Source of the DNA: Leeuwenhoekiella parthenopeia
Lineage (GTDB): Bacteria; Bacteroidota; Bacteroidia; Flavobacteriales; Flavobacteriaceae
Assembly (NCBI RefSeq): GCF_020782115.1
Contig: NZ_JAJGMW010000002.1
Coordinates: 248,001-312,000, forward strand
Length of the DNA: 64,000 nt
Direction of reading: 5' to 3'
Shown: one piece after another, positions 1-15,467 of the stretch
Numbering within the stretch: position 1 is the stretch's first letter
Layout of the letters: every line of letters begins with the position of its first letter
The notes under the pieces: generated by a model
Told to the model about the DNA's origin: nothing
The model's input: the letters and a program-made list of their open reading frames with translations, nothing else
Databases searched by the model: none
Translations under genes and position numbers: made by a program

Positions 1-157
1 AATCTTTTTTTTGATCTTCGCTCAGAAACAAAATGTCCTGCCGGGAGCCAAAGGCAATTGTAGATAAGCCGTTGCGCTCAGCCACTTCAAGAATGCTCTT
101 TAATTCACCCGGGGCAAGCACCCCGCCTTTTACGATGACTCTGGAATAGTTTTTCAT
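1..157 (-). CDS. Partial gene cut by the left edge, N-terminus resembling a nitrite/sulfite reductase ferredoxin-like half-domain
   Basis: Only the first 52 or so codons are inside the window. The start ATG (complement of 155-157) overlaps the TGA of the nitrate reductase gene as ATGA, so the two are probably translationally coupled. The visible N-terminus (MKNYSRVIVKGG, then LAPGELKSIL and IAFGSRQDILF) resembles the ferredoxin-like half-domain of siroheme nitrite/sulfite reductases. From memory, flavobacterial nitrate clusters often carry a rubredoxin-containing protein at this place, so an electron carrier for nitrate reduction is plausible. That is inference, because the diagnostic part lies outside the window. 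Confidence 0.6.
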   Translation of the reverse strand, partial: MKNYSRVIVKGGVLAPGELKSILEVAERNGLSTIAFGSRQDILFLSEDQKKD

Positions 158-3100: not shown

Positions 3101-3678
3101 TTCTCTTTGTGCTGCTCAAGCCTGCGGTAGAGAATAGGATGGCAATAAGCCGGGTTAGCACCGGTTATTAAAAAGCAATCGGCCAGTTCAATATCTGCAT
3201 ACGAAATAGGTACAGAATCTTCCCCGAAGGTTTTTTTATAGCCCACAACCGCGCTGCTCATACACAACCTGGAGTTGGTGTCAATATTGTTTGTGCCCAG
3301 AAATCCCTTGACTAATTTGTTTGCGATGTAATATTCTTCGGTAAGACACTGTCCCGAAACGTAGAAGCCCACACTATCGGGTCCGTGCTTTTCGATAATG
3401 CTTTTAAAAACCTGGGCGGCACGGTCCAGAGCGGTGTCCCAGTCTACGCGCTCCAGCGGGTGTGAGCGGCTCCAGCGCATTTGTGGGTACAGCAACCGGT
3501 CTGAAGTATCATTTACCACATAATGCAGGTTGCGGCCTTTAGAGCAAAGCATCCCGCGGTTTACAGGATGATCGGGATCACCGTCTACCTGAATGCGGTT
3601 TTTGGCGTCTTTGGTGATGAGCAGACCGCAGCCCACGCCGCAATACGAACAGGTAGATTTTAAGACTTTTTCGGGCAT
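154..3678 (-). CDS. Fused assimilatory NAD(P)H nitrate reductase (molybdopterin + FAD reductase + [2Fe-2S] domain)
   Basis: A 1174-aa cytoplasmic enzyme predicted to reduce nitrate to nitrite. The N-terminus has the [4Fe-4S] motif C10-x2-C13-x3-C17 with the fourth ligand C45, followed by the bis-MGD molybdopterin domain to about residue 700. SRLCMSS holds the probable Mo-ligand cysteine. A second module (about 705-1100) starts with a GxGxxA Rossmann motif and resembles the FAD/NAD reductase part of NirB/NasB. The last 50 residues are a BFD-type [2Fe-2S] domain (CSCSQ and GLGCGSCK). NasA-type enzymes of about 700 aa use a separate reductase; here both are on one chain. No signal peptide is seen, which argues for an assimilatory role. 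It lies 192 bp downstream of the transporter gene, with a hairpin between them. The specific symbol (nasA/nasC/narB type) is left open. Confidence 0.93.
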   Translation of the reverse strand: MPEKVLKSTCSYCGVGCGLLITKDAKNRIQVDGDPDHPVNRGMLCSKGRNLHYVVNDTSDRLLYPQMRWSRSHPLERVDWDTALDRAAQVFKSIIEKHGPDSVGFYVSGQCLTEEYYIANKLVKGFLGTNNIDTNSRLCMSSAVVGYKKTFGEDSVPISYADIELADCFLITGANPAYCHPILYRRLEQHKEKNPDVRVIAVDPRLTDTAAAADLHLQLIPGTDIILYNAIGRRLLQLGLIDKDFINNHTEGFNQYKEQVNKLSLREASKLCGVPMADIKKAADWIGISKGFISMWAMGLNQSVVGTNKNFALLNLSLITGQVGKPGCGPFSLTGQPNAMGGREVGGMANLLAVHKDLTNPEHRSEVAQFWGVESISPKPGYTATQMFEELETGKLKAIWIICTNPAVSLPDVNRVEKALKNARFVVVQDISNRSDTLAYADLVLPAAGWLEKEGTMTNSERRITYLPKAVNAPGEARPDVEIICDFAQKMGFRGFNFYNTEEIYQEYCTMTRGTSIDISYLNYDRLKTEGSFQWPVNEYRHPGTPRLFEDRKFYTPSQKAVFNIPATVTNRSIKPSAAFPFILTTGRVRDQWHTMTKTGKVSRLRTHYPKPVLEIHPADAFALNIREGNLCEVSSENGNVRVTARLTDSIRKGVVFLPMHWGKKLNSSLNRTNNLTQNMVDPQSKEPDFKFTAVKVARYQKKPEKIVVVGSGAAAFRFVQNYRDLNKDDQISVFSKEEHPFYNRVLLPEYITEALSWEQLLKAKSHQLKALNIKIHSGNPVVQIDRESRTLKDSRGIYHTYDKLILATGSRAFVPPDARLDLEGRFTMRDKEDADRFKDYLAKTGIPPEQQRVVLVGGGLLGLELAASLRHKQVNITIVQRSSYLMERQLDTVASRLLALDVQRRGISVYFDNEVSTVFPGDEPKTLEVTLKSGKLIEAHAIVYAIGTQPNIEIARKAGLVMGRGVKVNEFLQTSDPSVFALGEIAEFRNQTFGITAAAEEQAAILANYLSGDISTSYEGSVPMNILKFEDLDLCSIGTISIPKNDPDYEEVIFMDVARNYYKKCIIKDDLLVGAVLMGDKKEFAEFKNLIDSKIELAEKRDQLLRGSAKQAPVLGRLVCSCSQVGAGNIADAIAGGCTDFTALCNKTGAGLGCGSCKTEVRELLTESTQSVS

Positions 3679-3714
3679 GGTTTGTGTACTTACAGGATAT
3701 TTATAGAGCCTGAA

Positions 3715-3752
3715 GGCTTCAGCAGCAGCTTTTCGCTTTGCCTGCTGAAGCC
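3715..3752 (-). other. Hairpin in the transporter-nitrate reductase intergenic region
   Basis: GGCTTCAGCAG (3715-3725) and CTGCTGAAGCC (3742-3752) form a perfect 11-bp stem with a 16-nt loop. On the minus strand no T-run follows, so it is not a typical terminator. It lies in the 192-bp gap upstream of the nitrate reductase start at 3678. It could be an RNA processing or stability element or an attenuator; the sequence does not decide. Confidence 0.55.
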
Positions 3753-3870
3753 CCCGGCCAACTCTAAGTTTATTGTTTTTTCCAGATAATCAAAGCAGCA
3801 GATTGTGATTTACGAAAAATGGAATCTGATTCAGAAAAAATGCAGAAAACGGATTTTAAGCAGGTTAATT

Positions 3871-5301
3871 TTATGCATTTGATGGCACTAACTGCTCGGG
3901 TAAATCGTAGCTGAGATCTTCGGCTGCAGATTTTTCGTCAGCGGTTGAAAAGCGTATGGCAAGTGCTAAGACTCCCGCTAGAAATACTAAAATACCAATG
4001 AGAAAGTAACCGCTTGATACGGCTGTTGCTGCTGCTTCTGCCTGAGCCAGTTTTACCACTTCTTCAGCTGCACCGGCATTGGCATTTATGGCTGCCTGCT
4101 CAGCCACGGCGGCTTTCGATTTTAAGAGCAGGGCGGCGAGAAATGCACCTACGTTACCCCCGGCACCAACAATACCTGAAATAGAACCTATAGCTTTTTT
4201 GTTGATAAACGGTACTACCGAGAAGGTTGCTCCTTCAGCCATTTGTACCGAAAGACTAAAGGCTACCAAAAAGACAATACCCACAATTAAACTTGTGATG
4301 GCCGAAAAGGTAACCAGCATAACTCCCTCCAGGGCAAGAATAGCAACCAAAAAGAGCACCCGGCCGCGCAATCCCTTCAGCTTACCAAATTTATCTCCAA
4401 AATAGCCTCCCAGCGTACGGGCAAAAATATTCATCAGGGCAAAAGAAAGCACGATATTACCGGCGGTGATACGATCAAGACTGAAGGTGTTTTGAAGGTA
4501 GTCATCCATAGTGCCGTAAACGGTTAATTCGATACCAAAACAGGCGGCATAAACCACAAAGAGAATCCACACGCGGTAATCTTTTAAAGCTTCCATAAAG
4601 CCTACTTCGTCTTTTTTACCGGCTTTTACTTTTTTACCGGCTGCGCGCAGTTCGCTAAAATTACCTTCGGGCGTATCCTGAGTAAAGAAGTAATAGACAA
4701 TGCCCATCAGGAAGCAGATAATTCCTGCGATGATAAGCGAGTACCTCCAGGCGTCTGCTTCAGCAACACCCATACCGATCACGGCAGCTGCAATAAGCGG
4801 CATCCCCAGACGGTTTGCACCACCACCCAGATTACCCCAGCCTGCCGAAGTGGCGTTGGCGGTTCCTACGATGTTAGAGGCAAACATAAGCGAGGTATGT
4901 ACCTGTGTGATTACAAAGCTGGCGCCGATAAAGCCTATAAATAACCGGCAGATTAAAAACTGAAGCGGAGTTTGTACCAGTCCGCACAGGATAACGGGTA
5001 TTGCACCCAGCAGGAGCAACCAGGTATAGCACAATCTAGGGCCGTATTTGTCGCAAAGTTTACCTATTAGCAAACGGGCAAATACAGTACCTGCAACGGC
5101 CAGAATCACAGAATTCCATTTTTGATTGGGAGAAAGCCCCAGATCCCGTACGACATCGGGCATAAAAGGAACAATACCAAACCATGCGAAGAAGCATAAA
5201 AAGAATGCCACCGAAGTAATCCAAAACGTTCGCATAGGAACGCTGGTAAAATCTTTCAAATTAAGGCGGGTTGCCTTTGCGGAAGTGAATGTACGTGTCA
5301 T
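3871..5301 (-). CDS. NarK/NasA-type nitrate/nitrite MFS transporter
   Basis: A 476-aa major facilitator with about 12 hydrophobic segments, predicted to move nitrate and/or nitrite across the inner membrane. Two glycine-rich nitrate-porter signatures are seen (AGWGNLGGGANR in the fifth segment, GAGGNVGAF in the eleventh), with arginines in ARLLIG and ARTLGG at the places expected for substrate binding. An alanine-rich stretch (AAINANAGAAEEV) lies in the loop before the last helix. The start ATG is 20 nt downstream of a good -7 box. It is followed by the nitrate reductase and preceded by the NarL-like regulator gene, but has its own promoter and operator. Uptake, export or exchange cannot be told apart from sequence. 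Confidence 0.92.
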   Translation of the reverse strand: MTRTFTSAKATRLNLKDFTSVPMRTFWITSVAFFLCFFAWFGIVPFMPDVVRDLGLSPNQKWNSVILAVAGTVFARLLIGKLCDKYGPRLCYTWLLLLGAIPVILCGLVQTPLQFLICRLFIGFIGASFVITQVHTSLMFASNIVGTANATSAGWGNLGGGANRLGMPLIAAAVIGMGVAEADAWRYSLIIAGIICFLMGIVYYFFTQDTPEGNFSELRAAGKKVKAGKKDEVGFMEALKDYRVWILFVVYAACFGIELTVYGTMDDYLQNTFSLDRITAGNIVLSFALMNIFARTLGGYFGDKFGKLKGLRGRVLFLVAILALEGVMLVTFSAITSLIVGIVFLVAFSLSVQMAEGATFSVVPFINKKAIGSISGIVGAGGNVGAFLAALLLKSKAAVAEQAAINANAGAAEEVVKLAQAEAAATAVSSGYFLIGILVFLAGVLALAIRFSTADEKSAAEDLSYDLPEQLVPSNA

Positions 5302-5320
5302 AATTAAGTGTTTATACTTA

Positions 5321-5328
5321 CAAAAATA
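5321..5328 (-). promoter_or_regulatory. -7 box of the nitrate transporter promoter
   Basis: The minus strand reads TATTTTTG, matching the Bacteroidota -7 consensus TAnnTTTG. It lies 20 nt from the ATG of the transporter, so the leader should be only about 12 nt. No clear -33 TTTG is present at the usual distance, which suggests activator dependence. The nirB promoter has exactly the same spacing. Confidence 0.65.
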
Positions 5329-5343
5329 AGTAGTAATACTTAA
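5326..5343. promoter_or_regulatory. Operator-like inverted repeat upstream of the nitrate transporter, shared with nirB
   Basis: ATAAGTAG-TA-ATACTTAA is an imperfect 8-2-8 palindrome that overlaps the upstream edge of the -7 box by 3 bp. A TACGTA hexamer follows at 5350-5355. The nirB promoter carries the same arrangement at 11431-11459. ATAAGTA fits the reverse complement of the NarL/NarP heptamer TACYYMT known from enterobacteria, while TACTTAA fits all but its last base. An assignment to the neighbouring NarL-like regulator is inference. Confidence 0.6.
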
Positions 5344-5436
5344 TTATAATACGTAGTCTTGAAGAAATACGAATATTAAAATTTCAATCCGTTTTATTAT
5401 TGATTTCTGAAAATGCAGATTGAAATAGTTAGAGAT

Positions 5437-6108
5437 TTACATCAAATTGAATTCAGAAGCCTTGTTTGCCAGCTCCATAAGATTCTTAACCTCAAGCTTT
5501 TTCATCAAATTAAAGCGGTGAACTTCTGCCGTACGCTTACTGATGTTGAGGTCTTCGCCAATTTCCTTGTTGCTTTTGCCTTCAAGTACCAGTCCCAGGA
5601 TCTGGCGCTCGCGTTTGGTAAGGCTGTAGGCATCAACAATAGAGGCTTTGGGTTTTTGAACCGGAGCTGGGGCCTTGCCGGTCACAAAATTGTTGATGAT
5701 GATAGAAGACAGCTCCCCGGCAAAATACTTATCCCCCTGTTGTAAGGTGTGCAGGGCTTTTAAAAATTCTTCCTTGCTCGAACCTTTAAGCAAATACCCG
5801 TCTGCACCTGCCTGTATAGACTGTAGCACATACTCCTCACTGTCATGCATAGAAAGCACCAGGGTTTTGAGATCAAGTCCCTCATCGCGCAGTTGCTGTA
5901 CGACTTCAATACCATTAAGCCCGGGCATTCGGATGTCGACAATGAGTAAATCGGGTTTTTGCTTGCGCACGACTTCAAGGGCTTCCCTGCCGTCTGAAGC
6001 TTCATCAATTACCAGAATATCCTGCTGGTCTTCAAGCAGTGCTTTAATGCCGTCGCGTACCAGGACGTGGTCGTCTGCAAGTACGACTTTGAGCTTCTCG
6101 GTTTCCAT
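5437..6108 (-). CDS. NarL/FixJ-family response regulator
   Basis: A 223-aa DNA-binding response regulator. The receiver domain (residues 6-120) has the acidic pair D12/D13, the phospho-acceptor D58 in IVDIRMPG and the conserved lysine in LLKGS. A LuxR-type helix-turn-helix follows (about 160-215, LTKRERQIL and SNKEIGEDLNIS). Its start is 9 bp downstream of the kinase stop, so both are almost surely one operon and a cognate pair. The neighbours are nitrate/nitrite genes, so it is likely the nitrate-responsive regulator. Its targets may be the two ATAAGTA...TACTTA operators at 5326 and 11431; that link is inference. Confidence 0.9.
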   Translation of the reverse strand: METEKLKVVLADDHVLVRDGIKALLEDQQDILVIDEASDGREALEVVRKQKPDLLIVDIRMPGLNGIEVVQQLRDEGLDLKTLVLSMHDSEEYVLQSIQAGADGYLLKGSSKEEFLKALHTLQQGDKYFAGELSSIIINNFVTGKAPAPVQKPKASIVDAYSLTKRERQILGLVLEGKSNKEIGEDLNISKRTAEVHRFNLMKKLEVKNLMELANKASEFNLM

Positions 6109-6117
6109 ATTGAGCGT

Positions 6118-7908
6118 TTAATCTATGGGGATGTTGAGCACAATGCGTGTTCCCTTTCCCGGCTCCGAATTTACGAAAAGTCTTCCGTTAATGTAGTTCA
6201 TACGCTCGTGCATAAAGGTCATACCCATTCCGCCACCTTCGCGGTTCTCAAGGTCAATTCCGGAAGGGTCAAAACCTTTGCCGTCGTCGTCTATGTTAAT
6301 GCTGAGCATGCTTTTGCTGTGCCTAACGCTTACCATAATAATTTTAGAGCCTGCGTATTTTAAGGCGTTGTTGATTGCTTCCTGGGTAATGCGGTAGGTG
6401 TTAATCTCCACCAGACTGTCTAGCCGCAGGTTAAAATCGGTCTTGTTGTGCAATTGGATGTGCTTGCCGGTGAGGTTGCTGAGTTCTTTTGTGAGTTTTG
6501 CCAAAGCGGGAATAAGCCCATGGTCTGTAAGCTCAGGCGGAGTAAGGTTAAAGGTGGCGGTGCGTATGCCTTTAATAATATCCAGCGAAAGGTTTTTAAG
6601 ATGGGTGATTTTGGCCTGTGCCTTTTCAGGGTCTTTAAGGTCTATGCTTTCGAGGGTAAATTTAAGCCCCGTAAGCATCTGGCCAATGCCGTCGTGCAGA
6701 TCACGCGCAATGCGGTTTTGCTCACGCTCCTGGTTCTCGATGATTTGGCGCGAAACGTTTTTCTGCTGGCTGATGCGCTCTTCAAAGTGGGATTTGGTAA
6801 GCCGTTCAATCTCATCATGTGCCTCTTTACGCTTGGTGATGTCTATAAAAATTATGAGTAACTGATGATTTTCTTTATGTTTTAAAAACGGAAGCAATGA
6901 CATTTCAAAATAACGACGGTTCCCTTCTTTTGGGGTGGCGCTGATCTCTCCCTGCCAGCCGGTGCGTTTGTGTTCGTTTAAAAGTTGCTCCAGACGCTGC
7001 TTTTCGGGCTCGTGGGTAGAGATAACATCAGAAAGTCTGGATTGAGTTTCGAGATTTTTGGGTTTAAAGAGTTTGATAAACGGGTCGCCCGCGTGCAGAA
7101 TGTTTCCGTTGAGGTCTGTGCGTACAAAAAACAGGGTACGGTCCATCGCCTGGCTTAGTGCCTGGTATTCCCAAAGTAATTTTTCTTTAGATTCGGCTAA
7201 AGCGTCGGCGTCACGGGCCATTTTTTGAGCCTTTCGCTCTGCGGTAATAAGATCAAACATCCCGGTGCGTACCGCTTTCGCCGTAGGCCAAAAAATAAAA
7301 ATGAATTCAGCCAAAAGCAGGAGCAGGGTAAGTCCCATTAGCAGGACCTCAAGGGTGCGCAACCGCTCAATCTTGGCATCGGCCTCATACTGGTACTGAT
7401 TTACAATACGGTCCATCAGCCTTAAAAACGGGGCTTCATTGGCCAAAATGGTGTTTAAAGCGCCGAGACTGGTTACATCTGTAGTATTTTCTGCGGAAAG
7501 CAATTGTGCCGAAGCTGCGTACACCGACTCAAAATAGGGATTGATCTGATCAAAAAGCTGGTTGATGCGGGCTGTATTGACTGCCGGAATATGCAGGCTG
7601 TCACTGCCGTTTTGCAGTGCGAGATGGCTGTTGTGCCAAAGCGTGCGGGTGGCGCTCAGACTGTCTTGCAGGGCCTGAATCTTCGCGCTGTTACCGGGGC
7701 GGGTGAGGAGCAGGGCTTCTTTAGTAATCTTTTGACTCAGCATACGCTGGCGCCCTGCGATGTTGATGACGGTAGAGTCTGCCGTTTGATCGTTTAAAAA
7801 TTTACGAACCAAAACCTGGCTTGCCACTACCGATAGCGCAATAAGGCTTAGTGCGATGATGTAAAGCTTCCGGAGTTTGGAAAAAGTTTTTTGGTCTAAC
7901 GTGGCCAT
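6118..7908 (-). CDS. NarX-like membrane sensor histidine kinase (PilJ-type sensor, PAS, HisKA_3)
   Basis: A 596-aa kinase. A transmembrane helix (about 12-31) is followed by a periplasmic region with RQRMLSQKI, the P-box-like motif of the NarX/PilJ nitrate-sensing domain family. A second transmembrane helix lies at about 187-210. Next come a PAS-like region (about 250-365), a coiled linker, the HisKA_3 H-box (ARDLHDGIGQ, H near 403) and a HATPase with NITQEAINNALKYA and GGGMGM. The C-terminus lies 9 bp before the response regulator gene. The first-helix motif plus the gene neighbourhood make nitrate/nitrite the likely ligand, though residue-level ligand contacts cannot be proven from sequence. 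Confidence 0.9.
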   Translation of the reverse strand: MATLDQKTFSKLRKLYIIALSLIALSVVASQVLVRKFLNDQTADSTVINIAGRQRMLSQKITKEALLLTRPGNSAKIQALQDSLSATRTLWHNSHLALQNGSDSLHIPAVNTARINQLFDQINPYFESVYAASAQLLSAENTTDVTSLGALNTILANEAPFLRLMDRIVNQYQYEADAKIERLRTLEVLLMGLTLLLLLAEFIFIFWPTAKAVRTGMFDLITAERKAQKMARDADALAESKEKLLWEYQALSQAMDRTLFFVRTDLNGNILHAGDPFIKLFKPKNLETQSRLSDVISTHEPEKQRLEQLLNEHKRTGWQGEISATPKEGNRRYFEMSLLPFLKHKENHQLLIIFIDITKRKEAHDEIERLTKSHFEERISQQKNVSRQIIENQEREQNRIARDLHDGIGQMLTGLKFTLESIDLKDPEKAQAKITHLKNLSLDIIKGIRTATFNLTPPELTDHGLIPALAKLTKELSNLTGKHIQLHNKTDFNLRLDSLVEINTYRITQEAINNALKYAGSKIIMVSVRHSKSMLSINIDDDGKGFDPSGIDLENREGGGMGMTFMHERMNYINGRLFVNSEPGKGTRIVLNIPID

Positions 7909-7917
7909 TTTTGATTT

Positions 7918-8496
7918 TTAAGTCAGGGCCTTGGTTACGAGTTCGCGGGTCTTTGGGCTCAGGTCGAGGGAAAGCGCAGCTTTGTGGCCTGCTTCAGACA
8001 TTTTGGCCCAGGTTTTCTGAAGGATATCAATTACTTTCTCTTCCGGATGTCCTTTGGCAAAATCTTCAAAATAATAGTCCAGAAAAACCAGACAGATTAC
8101 GTCTTCAAGTTTTTGAGAATCCTCGTCTTTTTTGAGCAGTTTCTTGCGGATCAAAAAGGCCACGCGATCCCGGAATTCTTCAGTAAAGCCAAGGTTTTCA
8201 AGAATAGCGGTGGTGATAGAAGCGTGCATCTTTTTGAGGTCTTCGCGCCATTTAAGATATCCGGTACGATTCATAGGATAAGAGTCCCGGGGTATCTGCC
8301 AGCGGCAAATATGCTGGGCGCGGGCTGCGATTTGCAAGGTTTCAGGAGCCTCGGGGTCAAAATCCTGCAAACGTGCGCTCATACGCCGCGAGTAGAGCAG
8401 TTCTTTGGGGACCTGCTCTCCGTCAACGAGTTCGTAGTTAGGGTCTTCTGCGTTTTTAGCGTCTATGGCGGCAAATGCCTGCTCCAATACTGTCAT
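7918..8496 (-). CDS. DUF4202-family protein of unknown function in the nitrite reductase operon
   Basis: A 192-aa soluble, mostly helical protein that I recognise as the DUF4202 type (RMSARLQDF, AARAQHICRWQIPR, YLKWREDLKKMHA, CLVFLDYYFEDFA). Conserved histidines and acidic residues occur in HICRW, MHASI and LVFLDYYFEDF, which could suggest a metal-bound helical fold, but no function is established to my knowledge. It lies 9 bp after nirD and 9 bp before the NarX-like kinase, so it is co-transcribed with nitrite reductase. A role in nitrite reductase maturation, siroheme or ammonium handling is a guess from context only. Confidence 0.75.
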   Translation of the reverse strand: MTVLEQAFAAIDAKNAEDPNYELVDGEQVPKELLYSRRMSARLQDFDPEAPETLQIAARAQHICRWQIPRDSYPMNRTGYLKWREDLKKMHASITTAILENLGFTEEFRDRVAFLIRKKLLKKDEDSQKLEDVICLVFLDYYFEDFAKGHPEEKVIDILQKTWAKMSEAGHKAALSLDLSPKTRELVTKALT

Positions 8497-8505
8497 GGGC
8501 CTGGT

Positions 8506-8886
8506 TTATTTATCACTAAAACCAATATACACCATATTATCCTGAATTTTTACGGGATAGGTTGCAATTTGATAGCTTTCGCCATTAAGGTTAGAACCGT
8601 CCTCGAGTGAAAAGGTTTTTTTGTGAAGGGGGCAGGCCACTTTGGGAATGCCGTCTGCATCACCGGTCATCCCCCGGGATAAGACCATCTCGAGTTTGTG
8701 CGGACACAAATTCTGACAGGCATACCATTTTGAAGTCAGGCTGAAATTGAAAACCGCGATTTGAAGTTTTCCATGTTTTACGCAGGCTCCTCCATTTTCG
8801 GGGAAATCTGAAGTATGACCTACCTTGACCCAGCTCGTGGCGGTGTCAGGAAAAACGCTGGTATAGTTATTTAGTAATTCTTCCAT
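8506..8886 (-). CDS. nirD: Nitrite reductase small subunit NirD (Rieske-type)
   Basis: A 126-aa Rieske-fold protein that partners NirB in NAD(P)H-dependent nitrite reduction to ammonium in the cytoplasm. The cluster ligands are present as CPHK and CPLHKKTF, so it should bind a real [2Fe-2S] centre; the enterobacterial NirD is known to lack the ligands. It starts 18 bp after the nirB stop and ends 9 bp before the DUF4202 gene, within one operon. The start ATG at 8886 gives a normal family length. Confidence 0.93.
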   Translation of the reverse strand: MEELLNNYTSVFPDTATSWVKVGHTSDFPENGGACVKHGKLQIAVFNFSLTSKWYACQNLCPHKLEMVLSRGMTGDADGIPKVACPLHKKTFSLEDGSNLNGESYQIATYPVKIQDNMVYIGFSDK

Positions 8887-8904
8887 GTTAAAAGCTTGAG
8901 ATTA

Positions 8905-11406
8905 TTACCAGGGGCGTGGCATTTTTTGATCCCGCAGCGACACAAATTCTAGGGTGTCGTCTACGTCGTCTGAGTTTACAAAATGTTTAAATCGGGAGGC
9001 CAGTTTAGGATCTTCAATAGCCTGTTTCCACTCGCATTCGTACTTGTTTACAAGTCCCTGCATTTCGGTTTCGAGTTCTTCGGCGATACCCAGACTGTCT
9101 TCAATAACTACCTGTTTCAGGTACTCGATACCTCCATCAAGTTTTTCAAGCCAGGGTGCTGTACGCACTAAAGGACCTGCTGTGCGTATGTAAAACATCA
9201 GGAAACGATCAAGATATTTAATGCAGGTTGCGTCATCCAGTTGCTCGGCCAGTAAAATGGCGTGTTTGGGAGTTGCCCCGCCATTACCGCATACGTAAAG
9301 ATTCCATCCACCATCTACCGCGATGAGTCCAAAATCCTTGCCCCGGGCTTCGGCGCACTCGCGAATACAGCCGCTTACGCCGCCTTTCAGTTTATGCGGA
9401 GAGCGTAGGCCGCGATAGCGGTTTTCAATCTCGATAGCAAAGGAGACCGACTCGTGCATACCGTAACGGCACCAGGTTGAGCCTACACAACTTTTAACCG
9501 TACGCAGCGATTTTCCGTAGGCGTGACCGCTTTCAAAGCCGGCTTCTATAAGTTCTTTCCAGATTAGCGGAAGCTCGTGAAGGCGCGCTCCAAAGAGGTC
9601 AATACGCTGACCGCCCGTGATTTTGGTGTACAGGTTGTATTTTTTGGCTACTTCGCCCAAAACGATGAGTTTCTCGGGGCTGATCTCGCCACCGGCAACA
9701 CGCGGAACTACCGAGTAGGTCCCGTTACGCTGTATATTGGCCAAAAAACGGTCGTTAGAATCCTGAATCACCGGTTGTTTGTTTGCGGTATCCATATAAA
9801 CACTCGAGAAAATCGACGCCATTACGGGTTTGCAGATTTCGCAACCGCAGCCGCTGCCCAGACGGGCAAGGGCTTCTTCGAAGGTCTTGATCTGTTTGAT
9901 TTTGACCAGATCATAAAGTTCCTGGCGGTTGTATTTAAAATGCTCGCAAACGGTATCTTTTACTTCTTTGCCCAAAGACTTTAGGGTCTCGTTGACGAGG
10001 TCAACTACCATAGGCTTGCAGCCGCCGCAGCCGGTGGTGGCTTTGGTGCATTTGATCACGTCTTTAAGATCAGAGCAGGTACCTTCTTCAATACTCTTGC
10101 ATATACTTCCTTTTGAAACGCTTTCGCAGGAACAAATTTGAGCAGTATCGGGCAAATCGAGTACACTTCCCAGAATATTGCTGTCTCCACCGCGGGAACC
10201 CAAAATAAGATCTTCGGGATTCTGGGGCAGCTTCATCGCATTATAGTAAATCTGAAACAGGCTGTTGTAATCGGAAGAGTCGCCAACTAAGATACCACCG
10301 TACAAACGCGAACCATCGCGGGCAACATTGATGCGTTTGTAAATGCCGCTGCGTTTGTTAACGTAGGTGATAGCTGCTACTTCTTCATTTTCAATAAAGG
10401 GATCACCAAAGCTCGCCACTTCGGTGCCTATGAGTTTGAGTTGGGTAGACATATCAATGGAGGCCGCCATACTTTTGCTGCCGTCTGTAAGCTGGTGCAC
10501 CGCAACATCGGCCATTTCGTAACCGGGAGCAACCAGCCCGTAAATACCGTCATTGTACAGAGCTACCTCGCCTATTGCAAATACGTGGGGGTCTGAGGTT
10601 TTCATTTTTTCATTAACCACAATGCCACCCCGTGCACCTACCTGAATGCCGCAGGCGCGTGCCAGTTCATCCCGTGGTCGAATCCCCGCAGAAATAATCA
10701 GCATATCAACATCCAGATGGGTGTCGTCTGCAAATTCCATACGTGCTATAGCTTCGTCCCCGGCAATTTGCTGGGTGGCTTTGCTGAGGTGAATGCCTAT
10801 ACCCAGACTTTCTATTTTAGCCTGAAGCATCGCGCTTGCGGCATCGTCCAGTTGGCGTGGCATCAGGCGTGGTGCAAACTCAATCACATGGGCCTCAAGC
10901 CCCAGTTCTTTAGCGGCGTTTGCCGCCTCAAGACCTAAAAGTCCGCCCCCAAGAACAGCAGCCTTAGCACCCGACTTAAGTTTGGCAGCGTAAGCCTTCA
11001 TCGCATCGAGATCTTCAATGGTACGGTAGACAAACACGCCCTTTTTATCTGCTCCTTTTATGGGTGGAACAAATGGCGCTGAGCCTGTGGCCAGGATGAG
11101 GTTGTCGTATTCATATACGGCCTGCTTGTGAGTCGTTACCGTTTTAGCCTCCAGATCAATGGCGGTAACCAGTTCTGAGGTGTGAAGTGCAATTCCTTTA
11201 GAAGCATACCAATCCCTGCCGGCGAGGAGGAGCTGGTCTGCGGTTTTATCACTAAAATATTCACTAAGGTGAACCCGGTCGTAAGCAGGACGCGGCTCTT
11301 CTCCAAAAACAACGACCTGAAAGGCCTCAAAATCAGGATGTGCAGCTAGTTTTTCGCAAAACTTATACCCTACCATTCCATTACCAATAACGATGACTTT
11401 TTTCAT
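8905..11406 (-). CDS. nirB: NAD(P)H nitrite reductase large subunit NirB
   Basis: An 833-aa siroheme enzyme that reduces nitrite to ammonium. Residues 1-400 form the FAD/NAD module (VIGNGMVGYKF and VLGGGLLGLEAA). BFD-type [2Fe-2S] sequences follow (CSCESV and TTGCGGCK near 425-470, then GCGCEICK near 520). The ferredoxin-like half-domain and the siroheme/[4Fe-4S] domain follow, with the cluster ligands CVGSTWC (about 640) and GCIREC (about 680). Length and domain order match NirB. It is the first gene of the nirB-nirD-DUF4202-kinase-regulator operon and reads from the promoter at 11426-11433. Confidence 0.96.
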   Translation of the reverse strand: MKKVIVIGNGMVGYKFCEKLAAHPDFEAFQVVVFGEEPRPAYDRVHLSEYFSDKTADQLLLAGRDWYASKGIALHTSELVTAIDLEAKTVTTHKQAVYEYDNLILATGSAPFVPPIKGADKKGVFVYRTIEDLDAMKAYAAKLKSGAKAAVLGGGLLGLEAANAAKELGLEAHVIEFAPRLMPRQLDDAASAMLQAKIESLGIGIHLSKATQQIAGDEAIARMEFADDTHLDVDMLIISAGIRPRDELARACGIQVGARGGIVVNEKMKTSDPHVFAIGEVALYNDGIYGLVAPGYEMADVAVHQLTDGSKSMAASIDMSTQLKLIGTEVASFGDPFIENEEVAAITYVNKRSGIYKRINVARDGSRLYGGILVGDSSDYNSLFQIYYNAMKLPQNPEDLILGSRGGDSNILGSVLDLPDTAQICSCESVSKGSICKSIEEGTCSDLKDVIKCTKATTGCGGCKPMVVDLVNETLKSLGKEVKDTVCEHFKYNRQELYDLVKIKQIKTFEEALARLGSGCGCEICKPVMASIFSSVYMDTANKQPVIQDSNDRFLANIQRNGTYSVVPRVAGGEISPEKLIVLGEVAKKYNLYTKITGGQRIDLFGARLHELPLIWKELIEAGFESGHAYGKSLRTVKSCVGSTWCRYGMHESVSFAIEIENRYRGLRSPHKLKGGVSGCIRECAEARGKDFGLIAVDGGWNLYVCGNGGATPKHAILLAEQLDDATCIKYLDRFLMFYIRTAGPLVRTAPWLEKLDGGIEYLKQVVIEDSLGIAEELETEMQGLVNKYECEWKQAIEDPKLASRFKHFVNSDDVDDTLEFVSLRDQKMPRPW

Positions 11407-11626: not shown

Positions 11627-11643
11627 CGGGTAAAATTTACCCG
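11627..11643. promoter_or_regulatory. Enhancer-type UAS palindrome for the sigma54 activator (cassette promoter)
   Basis: CGGGTAA-AAT-TTACCCG is a perfect 17-bp palindrome. A degenerate second site with an intact right half (TTACCCG, 11657-11663) lies 20 bp further, about two helical turns. The palindrome centre is about 140 bp upstream of the expected start of the sigma54 promoter at 11749. The same 17-bp motif lies at 14911-14927, at nearly the same distance from the next sigma54 promoter. Confidence 0.75.
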
Positions 11644-11748
11644 ATACGCATAGCAATTACCCGGTTGATTATTCGGTATAGGAATAAGCATTTTTTAAAG
11701 TTTTGATAATCAGTATTTTATTATGAATTTCAAGTTCCTGCGTTCTTT

Positions 11749-11764
11749 TGGAGGAATAGTTGCT
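11749..11764 (+). promoter_or_regulatory. Sigma54 (-24/-12) promoter of the sensor-kinase-activator cassette
   Basis: TGGAGGAATAGTTGCT has the GG and GC dinucleotides with exactly 10 bp between them and the TTGCT -12 box. The -24 box is TGGAGG instead of TGGCAC. Transcription should start near 11775, giving a leader of about 19 nt before the ATG at 11794. Support comes from the GAFTGA activator encoded two genes downstream and from the UAS upstream. Confidence 0.68.
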
Positions 11765-11793
11765 AACTAATGAGTAACTCAAATCTCTAAGTA

Positions 11794-12420
11794 ATGGCTA
11801 AGTCTTTAAATACCGCCCGTCGTATCAATACCATTCTGGCACTGGCTGTGGTTTTCCTGCTCGTTTTGGCTACAAATCGCATTGATCAGTATCATTTTAA
11901 AACCGCTCAGACCAATATGAATGAGGTGTTTGAAGACCGGGTGCTGGTGCAGGATTACATTTTTTCAATTTCGCGGGAATTGCATACCAGGCAACTCAAG
12001 CTCTACGATACTGTGCCGCAAACCACGAATTCAGGTTCTGAACAAACAGAGAGCGTTTCTCAGATTCTCTCCAAATTTGAAGCGACCAAGCTTACACCGG
12101 CCGAATACAATCTGCTTAAACAGTTTAAAAACGATTTCAATACTCTGGAAGGGCTGGATCGAAATCCTTCAACACAGAATAATGTTGAACTCCGGAAACG
12201 AAAAAGTGACCAACTCGCTGCCCTTCAGCAAAATTTGCTGGAGCTGAGTGAAATTCAGGTACGCGAAAGCAGGCGCCTCACCCGCGAGTCTCAAAAATCG
12301 CTTGATGTAAGTAATCTGCTGGCGAATCTGGAGATTTTCTTTTTGATCGTCATCGGGATCGCCCTGCAGGTACTTATTTTTTATAAATCGAAAAAGCTCG
12401 CGAAACAAAGCGCTGCTTAG
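11794..12420 (+). CDS. Membrane four-helix-bundle sensor protein without output domain
   Basis: A 208-aa protein with a transmembrane helix (about 11-27), a 150-residue extracytoplasmic helical region of the MCP four-helix-bundle type (many heptad leucines and charged residues, RESRRLTRESQ near the end), a second transmembrane helix (about 181-199) and a short basic tail. This is the sensor half of a chemoreceptor or kinase, with no HAMP, kinase or signalling domain attached. It is the first gene of a three-gene unit with a soluble kinase and an NtrC-type activator, so it probably acts as the detached membrane sensor for that kinase. The ligand is unknown. Confidence 0.75.
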   Translation: MAKSLNTARRINTILALAVVFLLVLATNRIDQYHFKTAQTNMNEVFEDRVLVQDYIFSISRELHTRQLKLYDTVPQTTNSGSEQTESVSQILSKFEATKLTPAEYNLLKQFKNDFNTLEGLDRNPSTQNNVELRKRKSDQLAALQQNLLELSEIQVRESRRLTRESQKSLDVSNLLANLEIFFLIVIGIALQVLIFYKSKKLAKQSAA

Positions 12421-12481
12421 GATTGTAGCACGCGGGTATTTTAAGGCTAAAGTTTTGGTCTTACACAAACAGGATGTTTAA

Positions 12482-12498
12482 CTTAGACGATCTCTAAG
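12482..12498 (+). other. Small inverted repeat just upstream of the kinase gene
   Basis: CTTAGA (12482-12487) and TCTAAG (12493-12498) form a 6-bp stem with a 5-nt loop, 8 nt before the kinase start. CGATC and GATCG overlap it as an alternative pairing. It could limit kinase translation relative to the sensor gene, but may be chance. Confidence 0.3.
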
Positions 12499-12506
12499 AT
12501 CGGCTT

Positions 12507-13601
12507 ATGAACAGCGTAGAAGCAGCTTTGAAAGAACGTATAAAAGAATTGACCTGCCTGTATGAGGTTTCTTCCATTCTGGTTAATGCCGACGAAACCA
12601 ATCACGAGGAAACCTACAGCAGTATCGCACAAAGTATTAAAATTGGATTTCAATATCCAGAAGATACCGAAGTGGTCATTGAGCAGGGGACGTTCTCCGT
12701 AAAGACCGGAAGCGTAAAAACCGATAAAAAACTCAGCAGTGCCATTCAGCTTTTTAAAAAAGAGGCCGGTTCCATCTGTGTATATCTCAACAAAACCGAA
12801 CTTGATTTTTTACCGGAAGAGCAGCCGCTTATAGACAACATTGCTTTAAAAATAGGGGATTATCTCGAGCGTTTGGCGATTAAACAAAACGAGTTGCTGC
12901 TGCGGCAGCAGATGGAGCACGCAGACCGGCTTACGATTATTGGCGAACTCACCGCCGGTATTGCACACGAGTTAAATACGCCGCTTGCAAATATTCTGGG
13001 CTTCGCCGAATTGTTACGCGATAACCTGAGTGATCACGATCCTGCTGTTTCCGACGTAGATAAAATCATCAAAAACGCTATGTTTTCTCGTGAAGTGGTT
13101 AAAAAACTGATGTTTTTTGCGCACGCCATTCCGCAGGAAAAAAAGGAAGTGAACATTATCCCGGTAGTACGGGATGCACTCGATTTACTGGATGCCGCGT
13201 TTAAAAAAGAACAGGTACGTTATGATTTTTATACAGAACAGGATCCCATTAAGCTTAAAGTAGATGCGGTGCAGCTGACTCAAATAATCATAAATTTGGT
13301 GATTAACGCGATTTACTTTTCGCCTAAAAAGGGCCTCGTAGGCATTAAGATTACACAGCAGGATGAAAACGTGGTTTTTGAAATCAGCGATGAAGGACCG
13401 GGGCTCAGCCCGGAAGCGCTGGAGAAAGTTTTTCAGCCCTTTTTTACCACCAAGCCCACGGGTGAAGGTTCGGGTCTTGGTTTAAGTGTGGTGCACGGGA
13501 TTGTAACCAGCCATAACGGAAGTATAACGGCTCAAAACAGGCCAGATCAAGGTGCGCTTTTTACCGTGCGCCTGCCCAAAGACGAATATGCGATTAAATA
13601 A
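12507..13601 (+). CDS. Soluble sensor histidine kinase, NtrB-like output
   Basis: A 364-aa cytoplasmic kinase with no transmembrane segment. Residues 1-125 look GAF-like (ELTCLYEVSSILV is a typical start). A coiled stretch leads to HisKA with H154 in GIAHELNTPLANILG. The HATPase has an N-box (NLVINAIYFSP), G1 (DEGPGL) and G2 (GEGSGLGLSVVHGI). It starts 86 bp after the membrane sensor gene and its end overlaps the activator start by 14 bp, so expression of kinase and activator is coupled. It likely phosphorylates D56 of the activator and takes its input from the membrane protein; the second point is inference. Confidence 0.9.
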   Translation: MNSVEAALKERIKELTCLYEVSSILVNADETNHEETYSSIAQSIKIGFQYPEDTEVVIEQGTFSVKTGSVKTDKKLSSAIQLFKKEAGSICVYLNKTELDFLPEEQPLIDNIALKIGDYLERLAIKQNELLLRQQMEHADRLTIIGELTAGIAHELNTPLANILGFAELLRDNLSDHDPAVSDVDKIIKNAMFSREVVKKLMFFAHAIPQEKKEVNIIPVVRDALDLLDAAFKKEQVRYDFYTEQDPIKLKVDAVQLTQIIINLVINAIYFSPKKGLVGIKITQQDENVVFEISDEGPGLSPEALEKVFQPFFTTKPTGEGSGLGLSVVHGIVTSHNGSITAQNRPDQGALFTVRLPKDEYAIK

Positions 13602-14910
13602 AGAAAACATATTGATTGTAGACGATGATCTGCATATTTTAGAACTGCTTCAGCGGCATCTGCACCGCTGGAATTACCATACCTATCGCGCAGTTTCGGT
13701 TAAGGAAGCGGTGAATATTCTACGGGATTCGCAGGTCGATTTGTTGATCACCGATTTAAAAATGCCGCAGATAGACGGCTTTGAACTCATCAAATTTGTC
13801 TCTGAACATTATCCCGATTTGCCCAAGCTCATAGTGACCGGCTTTCCTTCGGTACAGGATTCCCTCAAGGCTATTAAGTCTGGTGTGGCCGAATATCTGA
13901 CCAAGCCTTTTACACGCGACGAACTCGAAGAGGCCGTGACTAAAGCACTTTCGGCTTCCCGGGCAAAACCTAAAACACCAACTCAACCGGTGCAGCGTGA
14001 TGCGTATGGTGAAATCATTGGTTCTTCCGAAGAAATGAACGAGGTTCTTGAGGTGGTTGACCGGGTTAAAGACAATAAGGCTACGCTCTACATTAGTGGC
14101 GAAAGCGGCACCGGAAAAGAACTGGTTGCCCGTGCCGTACATTATCAGGGTAAGTTTGCCGCGGCTCCCTTTGTACCTGTGAATTGCGGCGGAATCCCCG
14201 AGACTTTACTGGAAGCTGAATTATTTGGCTACAAAAAAGGAGCATTTACCGGGGCAGAAAAAGACCGTAAAGGCGCATTCCAGTCCGCACAGGGTGGGAC
14301 TATTTTTTTAGATGAAATCGGGAATGCGTCATTGGCTGTGCAGGCCCGTTTGCTTAGGGTTTTACAGGAAAAGGAGGTGACTCCGCTGGGTTCGCACAAA
14401 CCCGAAAAAATTGATGTACGGGTCATCGCAGCTACAAATAATGACCTGGCCGAGATGATCAGAAAAGAAACCTTTAGAGAAGATTTATATTACCGCCTGA
14501 GAGTGGTGGAGATCCATATTCCGCCCCTGCGCAAACGCATGACAGACCTGCCGCTACTGGTAGATAAGTTTTTGCTCAAATACGGTTTAGAATACAAAGA
14601 CCGTTACCTGAAAATTGAACCTGATGCTTTGGAGGTACTGAAACGCTATTCCTGGCCGGGCAACATCAGGGAGCTTGAGAATGTGGTACAGCGCGCAGTG
14701 ATTATGTGTGATAAAAGCATACAGGTTAAAGACCTTCCCGATCATTTAAAGTATGCTATTGATATGCCGGAAGATGTACTTAGCTCTCTCGCAGAAATGG
14801 AGCGTAAGTACATCAAAAAAGTGCTTCGGGCTACCGGAAACAACAAAACCAGAGCTGCAGAAATTCTTCAGATTACCCGAAAAACACTACGCGAAAAGCT
14901 CAAGGAATAG
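13588..14910 (+). CDS. NtrC-family sigma54-dependent response regulator
   Basis: With the ATG at 13588 the protein is 440 aa; upstream codons in this frame overlap the kinase gene and add no conserved residues. The receiver domain has D56 in LLITDLKMP. The AAA+ domain has Walker A (GESGTGKE), the sigma54-contacting loop GAFTGA and Walker B (GTIFLDEIG). A Fis-type helix-turn-helix closes the protein (NNKTRAAEILQITRKTL). This is a full enhancer-binding protein. Its stop codon is followed at once by a CGGGTAA...TTACCCG palindrome, and the same palindrome lies upstream of its own operon, so autoregulation is likely. Confidence 0.95.
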   Translation: MRLNKENILIVDDDLHILELLQRHLHRWNYHTYRAVSVKEAVNILRDSQVDLLITDLKMPQIDGFELIKFVSEHYPDLPKLIVTGFPSVQDSLKAIKSGVAEYLTKPFTRDELEEAVTKALSASRAKPKTPTQPVQRDAYGEIIGSSEEMNEVLEVVDRVKDNKATLYISGESGTGKELVARAVHYQGKFAAAPFVPVNCGGIPETLLEAELFGYKKGAFTGAEKDRKGAFQSAQGGTIFLDEIGNASLAVQARLLRVLQEKEVTPLGSHKPEKIDVRVIAATNNDLAEMIRKETFREDLYYRLRVVEIHIPPLRKRMTDLPLLVDKFLLKYGLEYKDRYLKIEPDALEVLKRYSWPGNIRELENVVQRAVIMCDKSIQVKDLPDHLKYAIDMPEDVLSSLAEMERKYIKKVLRATGNNKTRAAEILQITRKTLREKLKE

Positions 14911-14927
14911 CGGGTAATTCTTACCCG
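14911..14927. promoter_or_regulatory. UAS palindrome for the sigma54 activator (secreted-protein promoter)
   Basis: CGGGTAA-TTC-TTACCCG is a 17-bp palindrome with the same 7-3-7 form as 11627-11643. It begins one base after the activator stop codon. A degenerate partner site lies 19 bp on (14930-14946). Its centre is about 144 bp upstream of the expected start of the 15037 promoter, against about 140 bp at the other locus. Confidence 0.75.
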
Positions 14928-14968
14928 GCCGGATCTTTTTTACGCACCGGCTGCTCATTCCGTTTTCA

Positions 14969-14986
14969 ACTTATTTGAAAATAAGT
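14969..14986. promoter_or_regulatory. Second perfect palindrome between UAS and sigma54 promoter
   Basis: ACTTATTT-GA-AAATAAGT is a perfect 8-2-8 inverted repeat. A further half site AATAAGTT lies at 14998-15005, and ATTGAA-A-TTCAAT is at 14988-15000. It lies about 85 bp upstream of the expected transcription start. The cassette promoter has no obvious equivalent, so a second regulator or a DNA-bending site is possible. Confidence 0.5.
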
Positions 14987-15036
14987 AATTGAAATTCAAT
15001 AAGTTATAATTTTATTCGGCTAAATGGCCCAGGCAG

Positions 15037-15052
15037 TGGCATACGGCTTGCT
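15037..15052 (+). promoter_or_regulatory. Sigma54 (-24/-12) promoter of the small secreted protein
   Basis: TGGCATACGGCTTGCT matches TGGCAYR-N4-TTGCW with exact spacing. Transcription is expected near 15063, about 36 nt before the ATG at 15099. It lies directly downstream of the sigma54 activator gene and its UAS. Confidence 0.8.
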
Positions 15053-15098: not shown

Positions 15099-15467
15099 AT
15101 GAAAACATTTATAGCAATTGCCGCAATGGCACTGGGATTAACAACTGTACAGGCACAAAACACGTGTGAAACCCCGCAATTGAAAGCAGGTGATGTGATT
15201 AAGATCGCAAGCCCTTCACACGCTACCTACTCGCACATCAACTTCCCCAAAAGTAATTTTATCATCAAGCGAGGGGGGATAGCCAATCATAAATCGCTAA
15301 TCAACAAAGAGGTTGAGGTAACCGAAGTAAAAATGGAAAACGGATGCGTTGCTCAGATTGAAGTAAAACTGAAAGATGGCAAGAAGTTTTTTAATGTGGT
15401 GTGTGAGGTGAGTATCGATTTGGAAGATGCTCTTGCTGCAGGTGAGGTCAGGCTTTTAAAATCCTAA
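15099..15467 (+). CDS. Small secreted protein of unknown function, probable sigma54 target
   Basis: A 122-aa protein with a clear signal peptide (MKTFIAIAAMALGLTTVQAQ, cleavage around residue 20) and a mature domain of about 100 residues rich in beta strands and lysine (GDVIKIASPSH, FIIKRGGIANHKSL, VEVTEVKMENG, VKLKDGKKFF). Three cysteines remain after cleavage (TCETP, NGCVA, VVCEV). No family is recognised. The alternating strand pattern suggests a small SH3-like beta barrel, which is inference. It has its own sigma54 promoter and UAS and a strong terminator, so it is a single-gene unit, probably controlled by the upstream two-component system. Confidence 0.85.
   Translation: MKTFIAIAAMALGLTTVQAQNTCETPQLKAGDVIKIASPSHATYSHINFPKSNFIIKRGGIANHKSLINKEVEVTEVKMENGCVAQIEVKLKDGKKFFNVVCEVSIDLEDALAAGEVRLLKS

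Follow-up and report, generated by a model that had tools for sequence, protein, structure and literature searches.

A probable autoactivating sigma54 two-component circuit and its enhancer layout in Leeuwenhoekiella and other Flavobacteriaceae

In a 64,000-nucleotide stretch of the Leeuwenhoekiella parthenopeia genome (contig NZ_JAJGMW010000002.1, positions 248,001 to 312,000 of the forward strand; henceforth the window) we studied a cassette that encodes, in this order, a membrane four-helix-bundle (4HB) protein, a histidine kinase, an NtrC-type response regulator and a small protein whose N-terminus is signal-like (putative small secreted protein, SSP). Judging by sequence, it is very probable that this cassette forms an autoactivating sigma54 two-component circuit of the NtrC type. 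The initial annotation of this DNA had proposed that the regulator binds a palindrome and drives its own operon together with the SSP gene. That proposal is favoured by the recurrence of the same sites in 34 of 37 orthologous loci and 51 of 60 held-out loci, and by covariation between recognition helix and half-site; it is refined in three points, namely the unit that would be bound, the usual target and the place of autoregulation.

Dyads, promoters and the regulator in the window

Two upstream activating sequences (UAS) were found, both on the plus strand. UAS-A consists of dyad 1 (CGGGTAAAATTTACCCG; 11627–11643) and, 20 bp from it, a degenerate dyad 2 (CGCATAGCAATTACCCG; 11647–11663), and is followed by sigma54-type promoter A (TGGAGGAATAGTTGCT; 11749–11764), a GG-N10-GC element that starts 122 bp from the start of dyad 1. 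UAS-B has the same build: dyad 1 (CGGGTAATTCTTACCCG; 14911–14927) begins at the first base past the regulator stop codon, the degenerate dyad 2 (CGGATCTTTTTTACGCA; 14930–14946) lies 19 bp from it, and promoter B (TGGCATACGGCTTGCT; 15037–15052), also GG-N10-GC, starts 126 bp from the start of dyad 1. Both CGGGTAA-N3-TTACCCG palindromes, their degenerate partners and the two GG-N10-GC elements thus lie where the initial annotation had put them. Its distance of 140–144 bp holds when measured from palindrome centre to presumed +1, and not from dyad start to TGG start, which gives 122 and 126 bp. Scored against the -24/-12 pattern (maximum 22.5), promoter B reaches 22.5 and promoter A 18.0. Taken alone, promoter A is a weak candidate, and the case for it rests on its position and on the relatives, where a counterpart, with 113–125 bp spacing, stands before the same 4HB gene in 8 further loci.

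A palindrome common across the genome and unconnected with sigma54 promoters would have spoken against the proposal, as the initial annotation itself pointed out. The palindrome is not common: exact copies of CGGGTAAN3TTACCCG occur at 2 places in the 4.42 Mb genome (58 contigs; Leeuwenhoekiella lineage, Flavobacteriaceae), i.e., at 11627 and 14911 only. Allowing up to two mismatches gave 29 places vs 12 for the reversed pattern; around the other 27 the best -24/-12 score within 250 bp was 16–18.5 of 22.5, and a tandem-dyad scan of their surroundings (83 kb) found no match. Two further pattern scans, covering 13 genomes of the genus, asked for one intact half-site plus TGGN8TTGC at the right distance; in this genome, these half-site-anchored scans returned 14 places in addition to the two of the window, and at these 14 no paired dyads were seen by eye within the partial stretches viewed. 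The promoter consensus TGGCAYRN4TTGCW is exact at three genome places: at 15037, within a coding sequence, and at position 1501 of L050 (labels of this kind are our own). The L050 site (TGGCATAGCTCTTGCT) stands before another gene, which we take to encode a SIMPL-domain protein, carries neither this palindrome nor its UAS, and is possibly the target of another activator.

Between the two sites lies the regulator (13588–14910, plus strand), in which the initial annotation had read a GAFTGA motif and a Fis-type helix-turn-helix; the domain scan agrees. It has the three domains of an NtrC-type protein: a receiver domain (PF00072, E 3.6e-25), an AAA+ sigma54-interaction domain with a literal GAFTGA (PF00158, E 1.4e-69) and a C-terminal Fis-type DNA-binding domain (PF02954, E 1.9e-13). 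The further marks of such a system, i.e., paired dyads 5' of a -24/-12 promoter and rpoN in the genome, are likewise present as far as sequence can tell; rpoN is found as a single copy about 58 kb rightward of the cassette on the same contig. The regulator's closest named orthologue is that of L. nanhaiensis (97% identity).

Conservation of the layout in orthologous and held-out loci

Orthologues were collected by a search of 60 genomes and from named genomes. The resulting 37 loci comprise the window, 17 relatives from the 60-genome search and 19 from the named genomes, the last being what remained of 27 loci after L105 and L106 (the same as G004 and G002) and the distant relatives L126–L131 were dropped. 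The consensus and thresholds were set after reading these 37 loci, and only the 60 held-out loci described below are independent of them. The initial annotation had proposed scanning this genome and its relatives for the palindrome near sigma54 sites. Inspection of the 37 loci 3' of the regulator stop codon revealed a layout kept at near-fixed spacing with the regulator orthologues: two YGGGTAAN3TTACCCR dyads and then a -24/-12 site. The centres of the dyads are 18–20 bp apart (19 bp in 32 of 48 cases), so that the single palindrome of the initial annotation gives way to a pair of dyads as the unit. Over both strands of the 37 loci (761 kb), a tandem dyad with a sigma54 site at 110–140 bp was found at 46 places, while six other spacing bands in the same sequence gave 4, 3, 5, 2, 0 and 0. 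The 46 sites are spread over 34 of the 37 loci and precede the target operon (34), the 4HB gene (9) or a separate SSP gene (3).

From the start of the first dyad to TGG, the distance is 122–127 bp in 39 of 48 cases, 113–114 bp in 4, 136–137 bp in 4 and 118 bp in 1; this spacing table was entered by hand, takes in L124 and L125 despite their sub-threshold scan, and uses 118 bp for G023, which has two registers (118 and 138). The off-spacing cases come from three Formosa, one Psychroflexus, three related Leeuwenhoekiella and one genome of another family. The shifts amount to about one helical turn, a reading that is suggestive only because the shifted cases come from few lineages.

The regulator (E up to 1e-120) was detected in 69 of 299 genomes of the family, representing 57 of 236 genera. 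Among 63 previously unused copies we held out 60 (G291, G177 and G135 were left out), which derive from 59 genomes as G206 contributes two; 200-base probes of these loci were identical to none of the 37. The region 3' of the regulator was then scanned with consensus, thresholds and spacing unchanged. We found the layout in 51 of the 60 loci at 120–127 bp, and in 50 of these 51 at 122–127 bp. Control scans of the same loci at other spacings found it in 1, 2, 2, 1, 2 and 0 of 60, and three further controls (a 0.9 kb stretch further downstream, the reversed sequence and the other strand) in 0 of 60 each.

A tandem dyad with a -24/-12 site, at 113–125 bp spacing, is also found upstream of the 4HB gene in 9 of the 12 loci that have this gene. 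In G001, G003, G005, G008 and G009 the kinase gene is immediately preceded by the 4HB and NhaA genes; in G007 and G012 these two are on the other strand, with a site of their own in G012. Within the set of 37 loci, a site ahead of an operon that runs into the kinase and regulator genes was seen only in Leeuwenhoekiella, where it stands before the 4HB gene. The site before the regulator's own putative operon is present as the initial annotation had it, and autoregulation, for which such a site was seen only in the window's genus among these loci, looks like a secondary feature.

The candidate binding protein and rival explanations

Of the 37 orthologues, 36 have the literal GAFTGA, that of the window among them, and the helix-turn-helix of the regulator has a mean conservation of 0.78 per column over the same set. 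We compared recognition helices with half-sites in 84 regulators, i.e., 51 held-out copies and 33 of the 37 (G007, G012, L108 and L124 were dropped for a weak first match). In the recognition helix, the residue preceding R/K-K-T is a T for Leeuwenhoekiella regulators and a D for most of the rest. Position 5 of the half-site is T in 82% of 60 half-sites of T regulators; among the 260 half-sites of D regulators, T takes this position in 44% and G in 39%. Four held-out T cases have one G in 16 half-sites. One genome, G206 (loci L241 and L268), has two regulator copies with different recognition-helix residues (T and D) and different half-site types, with G in 0 of 4 half-sites of the T copy and in 2 of 4 of the D copy; it offers a natural pair for specificity tests. 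Such covariation, within G206 as well as across genomes, favours the neighbouring regulator as the likely binder of the dyads.

Several observations weigh against an autoactivating circuit of this kind or lessen the force of the counts. Promoter A is a weak -24/-12 match (18.0 of 22.5), and a -24/-12-like site in L084 scores higher (18.5) and lies 118 bp from a two-mismatch palindrome; we rejected the latter as a further site, as it lies within an open frame of 583 codons and lacks a tandem dyad. One-mismatch matches to TGGCAYRN4TTGCW are rarer than those to the reversed control (80 vs 112 genome places), so the element alone carries little information, and only its three exact places were followed. 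Three of the 37 loci (L108, L124 and L125) fall under the threshold, as do 9 of the 60 held-out loci, six of which show a -24/-12-like site by eye and three of which (L215, L225 and L270) do not. In G007, G010 and G011 no site before the 4HB gene reaches the threshold, hence the figure of 9 out of 12, and the regulator of G025 lacks the literal GAFTGA string. Finally, the loci are related and their counts thus not independent, and the T/D covariation was computed with no correction for relatedness.

The weakness of promoter A leaves room for a reading in which UAS-B is real and UAS-A has no active sigma54 promoter, a housekeeping promoter serving the 4HB, kinase and regulator genes and the regulator having another role at UAS-A, e.g., repression. 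The Bacteroidetes-type -33/-7 promoter consensus is matched, with one mismatch, at 12454 before the kinase gene (a rough estimate makes such a match expected by chance), and in loci outside Leeuwenhoekiella the scan found no site ahead of the kinase gene. Against this, the 4HB gene has its tandem dyad and -24/-12 site at 113–125 bp in 9 of 12 loci, including G012 where the gene is on the opposite strand, and the spacing at UAS-A is that of strong promoters; we regard this reading as unlikely. A still less likely one, which we hold to be quite improbable, is that the dyads are bound by another enhancer-binding protein of the cell and that the neighbouring regulator is not the activator. The genome does encode many such proteins (28 matches were scored), yet the dyads lie near the orthologue in 34 of 37 loci and 3' of it in 51 of 60, neither the pattern scans nor the near-palindrome scan turned up another copy of the layout in this genome, and half-site sequence varies with the recognition helix of the regulator, even between the two copies of G206.

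The palindromes could also be terminator hairpins, another RNA element or chance repeats. The 14911 palindrome abuts a stop codon, a usual place for a terminator, and the terminator scan lists it on the minus strand; it is unlisted on the plus strand, however, where no T-run follows, Rfam gave no match in the window at gathering scores, and in relatives the dyads hold a near-fixed distance to -24/-12 sites. To our mind this explanation is hardly credible.

We thus favour an autoactivating circuit, which might work as follows. A signal would reach the histidine kinase (12507–13601, plus strand; HisKA and HATPase_c), which is predicted to be soluble: no membrane-spanning stretch was detected, all 19-residue hydropathy windows being at or below 1.6. 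Its N-terminal domain is alpha/beta in a structure model (pLDDT 75.5, pTM 0.44) and has no Pfam match; a likeness to GAF was an impression only and was not adopted. The 4HB protein (11794–12420, plus strand) matches the sensory family PF12729 with E 6.3e-06 and 26.3 bits, slightly below the curated cut-off of 27, and has two hydrophobic helices by hydropathy; the domain scan found no output domain in it. Given a kinase with no hydrophobic segment and a membrane protein with two and no output domain found, the 4HB protein could pass the signal on, although this is a guess. The kinase would then phosphorylate the regulator, two dimers of which would bind the tandem dyads (two YGGGTAAN3TTACCCR sites, 18–20 bp apart) and assemble an AAA+ ring, and looping of the DNA over 85–90 bp to the -24/-12 site would activate RNA polymerase–sigma54. 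At UAS-A this would raise expression of a putative 4HB–kinase–regulator operon and so provide positive feedback, and at UAS-B it would switch on the small, presumably exported protein.

A wider reading, which we put forward tentatively and think rather doubtful as a whole, is that of a Flavobacteriaceae enhancer module that keeps the two regulator dimers and the sigma54 promoter at a near-constant distance and helical phase (around 124 bp, in a few cases shifted by roughly one turn) over dozens of genera as the targets change. In Leeuwenhoekiella, a regulated membrane-sensor gene placed before the kinase and regulator genes would have made a formerly one-way switch self-activating and three-component, the 4HB protein serving a soluble kinase as its sensor in trans.

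Target genes, related systems and significance

Among the 37 loci, the neighbourhood holds a gene for a GreA-like protein in 29, for a glutamate dehydrogenase (GDH) in 28 and for a small Cys-rich protein in 25. Within 2.4 kb of the 60 held-out loci the counts are 51, 48 and 44, respectively, and every one of these loci has at least one gene for GDH, the Cys-rich protein, SSP or the GreA-like protein (Pfam identities of target genes were taken from representatives). The site before the SSP gene is present, as the initial annotation had claimed, but SSP is not the usual target, the place being mostly taken by Cys-rich, GDH and GreA-like genes. In the window genome, G004, G002, G011 and G010 we found no match to the Cys-rich gene and no close GDH (best 32–33% identity), and the SSP gene and the 4HB, kinase and regulator genes remain at the locus. 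SSP is separate from the operon in G003, G005 and G009, where it has its own UAS and sigma54 site. The window circuit looks like a reduced form of a module that in Flavobacteriaceae usually targets a Cys-rich/GDH/GreA-like operon; a target gene may have landed upstream of its regulator and so created the self-activating loop, an order of events that we infer.

The Cys-rich protein (L035:9874-10032 and relatives) is 38–73 aa long in the loci listed, has a conserved CxxC...C...CSEY/F pattern, and its gene opens the operon in many relatives; the single member scanned had no Pfam family above cut-off. SSP itself (15099–15467, plus strand; 122 aa, the signal-like N-terminus being judged by eye) is a putative target with no assigned function, because its structure model is poor (mean pLDDT 65.3, with 39 of 122 residues below 50), fold matches to that model are weak (best E 0.028) and a profile search returned only designed proteins, at E 0.07. 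No Pfam family matched it at 0.001, the sole weaker hit being PepSY_2 (E 0.29), and no match was found in plasmids. A profile built from alignment A1 found relatives of SSP in 88 of 299 family genomes, many of them genomes where the regulator was not found, so unlinked paralogues exist; a strict co-occurrence of SSP (88 of 299) with the regulator (69 of 299) was accordingly rejected. At 127 bits or more, 19 of 21 SSP matches lie within 4 kb of the regulator as judged by eye (the exceptions are G138 and G154). By Pfam, linked genes in relatives include those for GDH and a Na+/H+ antiporter, to which we would add presumed chloride-channel-, HPP- and Usp-like genes; they hint at nitrogen or ion stress as the signal.

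On its left, the cassette is flanked by a nitrate/nitrite cluster on the opposite strand (window 154–11406) that includes DUF4202, nirD and nirB, and in which we take 154–3678 to be molybdopterin oxidoreductase-like, 3871–5301 transporter-like and 5437–7908 a two-component pair. The part from 5437 onward adjoins the cassette in G004 too, and in G003 some 2 kb separate nirBD from the 4HB gene; nirBD was not found in the examined stretch of G005 or G009. We considered a divergent sigma54 promoter for nirB and claim none, the two minus-strand matches (18.5 within nirB and 15.0 overlapping the UAS) being weak and the loose sigma54/palindrome scan behind them too noisy for use.

The closest known parallel in layout is the ZraPSR system of E. 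coli and Salmonella. There, the NtrC-type regulator ZraR is described as acting with sigma54 on few direct targets, among them its own zraSR operon and zraP, the gene for a small exported protein (PMC4987338, PMC7657598). Here, too, an NtrC-type regulator is encoded, and the sites predict that with sigma54 it would control its own kinase–regulator operon and a small, presumably exported protein. The best solved-structure match of our kinase model was ZraS. Equivalog scores, however, are below cut-off for both ZraR (375.1 of 760 bits) and ZraS (151.8 of 479 bits), the promoters here are tandem rather than divergent, and SSP has no Pfam match that would place it with ZraP-type exported zinc-binding proteins. 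The ZraPSR sensor kinase is membrane-bound; the present kinase shows no transmembrane segment in its hydropathy profile, and the 4HB membrane protein is the product of a gene of its own. The circuit is laid out like ZraPSR and is not a member of it by score, kinase topology or target protein.

Similarly, the regulator resembles NtrC and AtoC in its REC-AAA+-Fis architecture with GAFTGA and in having dyads upstream of a -24/-12 promoter, but misses both equivalog cut-offs (405.6 of 558.6 bits for NtrC (NR-I) and 398.5 of 714 for AtoC); the dyad sequence also differs from NtrC/AtoC sites, and the spacing here is nearly invariant across genera. Enhancers are usually located 80–150 bp upstream of the promoter, according to PMC4987338, and sigma54 transcription is reviewed in PMC7057263. 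In the same family, the transcriptome of F. psychrophilum defined -24/-12 sigma54 promoters (motif SM4), with targets in protein quality control, envelope stress, gliding and exported proteins, and reported three proteins with a sigma54-interaction domain; the available portion of that report names no activator or enhancer site for these promoters (PMC9723704). A survey of sigma54 regulons places glutamate dehydrogenases under sigma54 in Bacillota (PMC12316311). We found no publication on this regulator or motif when matching titles and the start of abstracts in the open-licence literature. The circuit belongs to a known kind, and what stands out is the tight, widely kept distance between enhancer and promoter together with the changing targets.

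The analysis offers a candidate activator, its binding motif and its target genes for a family in which PMC9723704, in its available portion, names no activator of sigma54 promoters. In the majority of the relatives studied, it links a small Cys-rich protein, GDH and a GreA-like protein with a single regulator. The near-fixed distance between dyads and promoter would allow looping distance and helical phase to be tested on natural variants, and the Leeuwenhoekiella arrangement suggests how a self-activating loop can arise through the arrival of a target gene upstream of its regulator.

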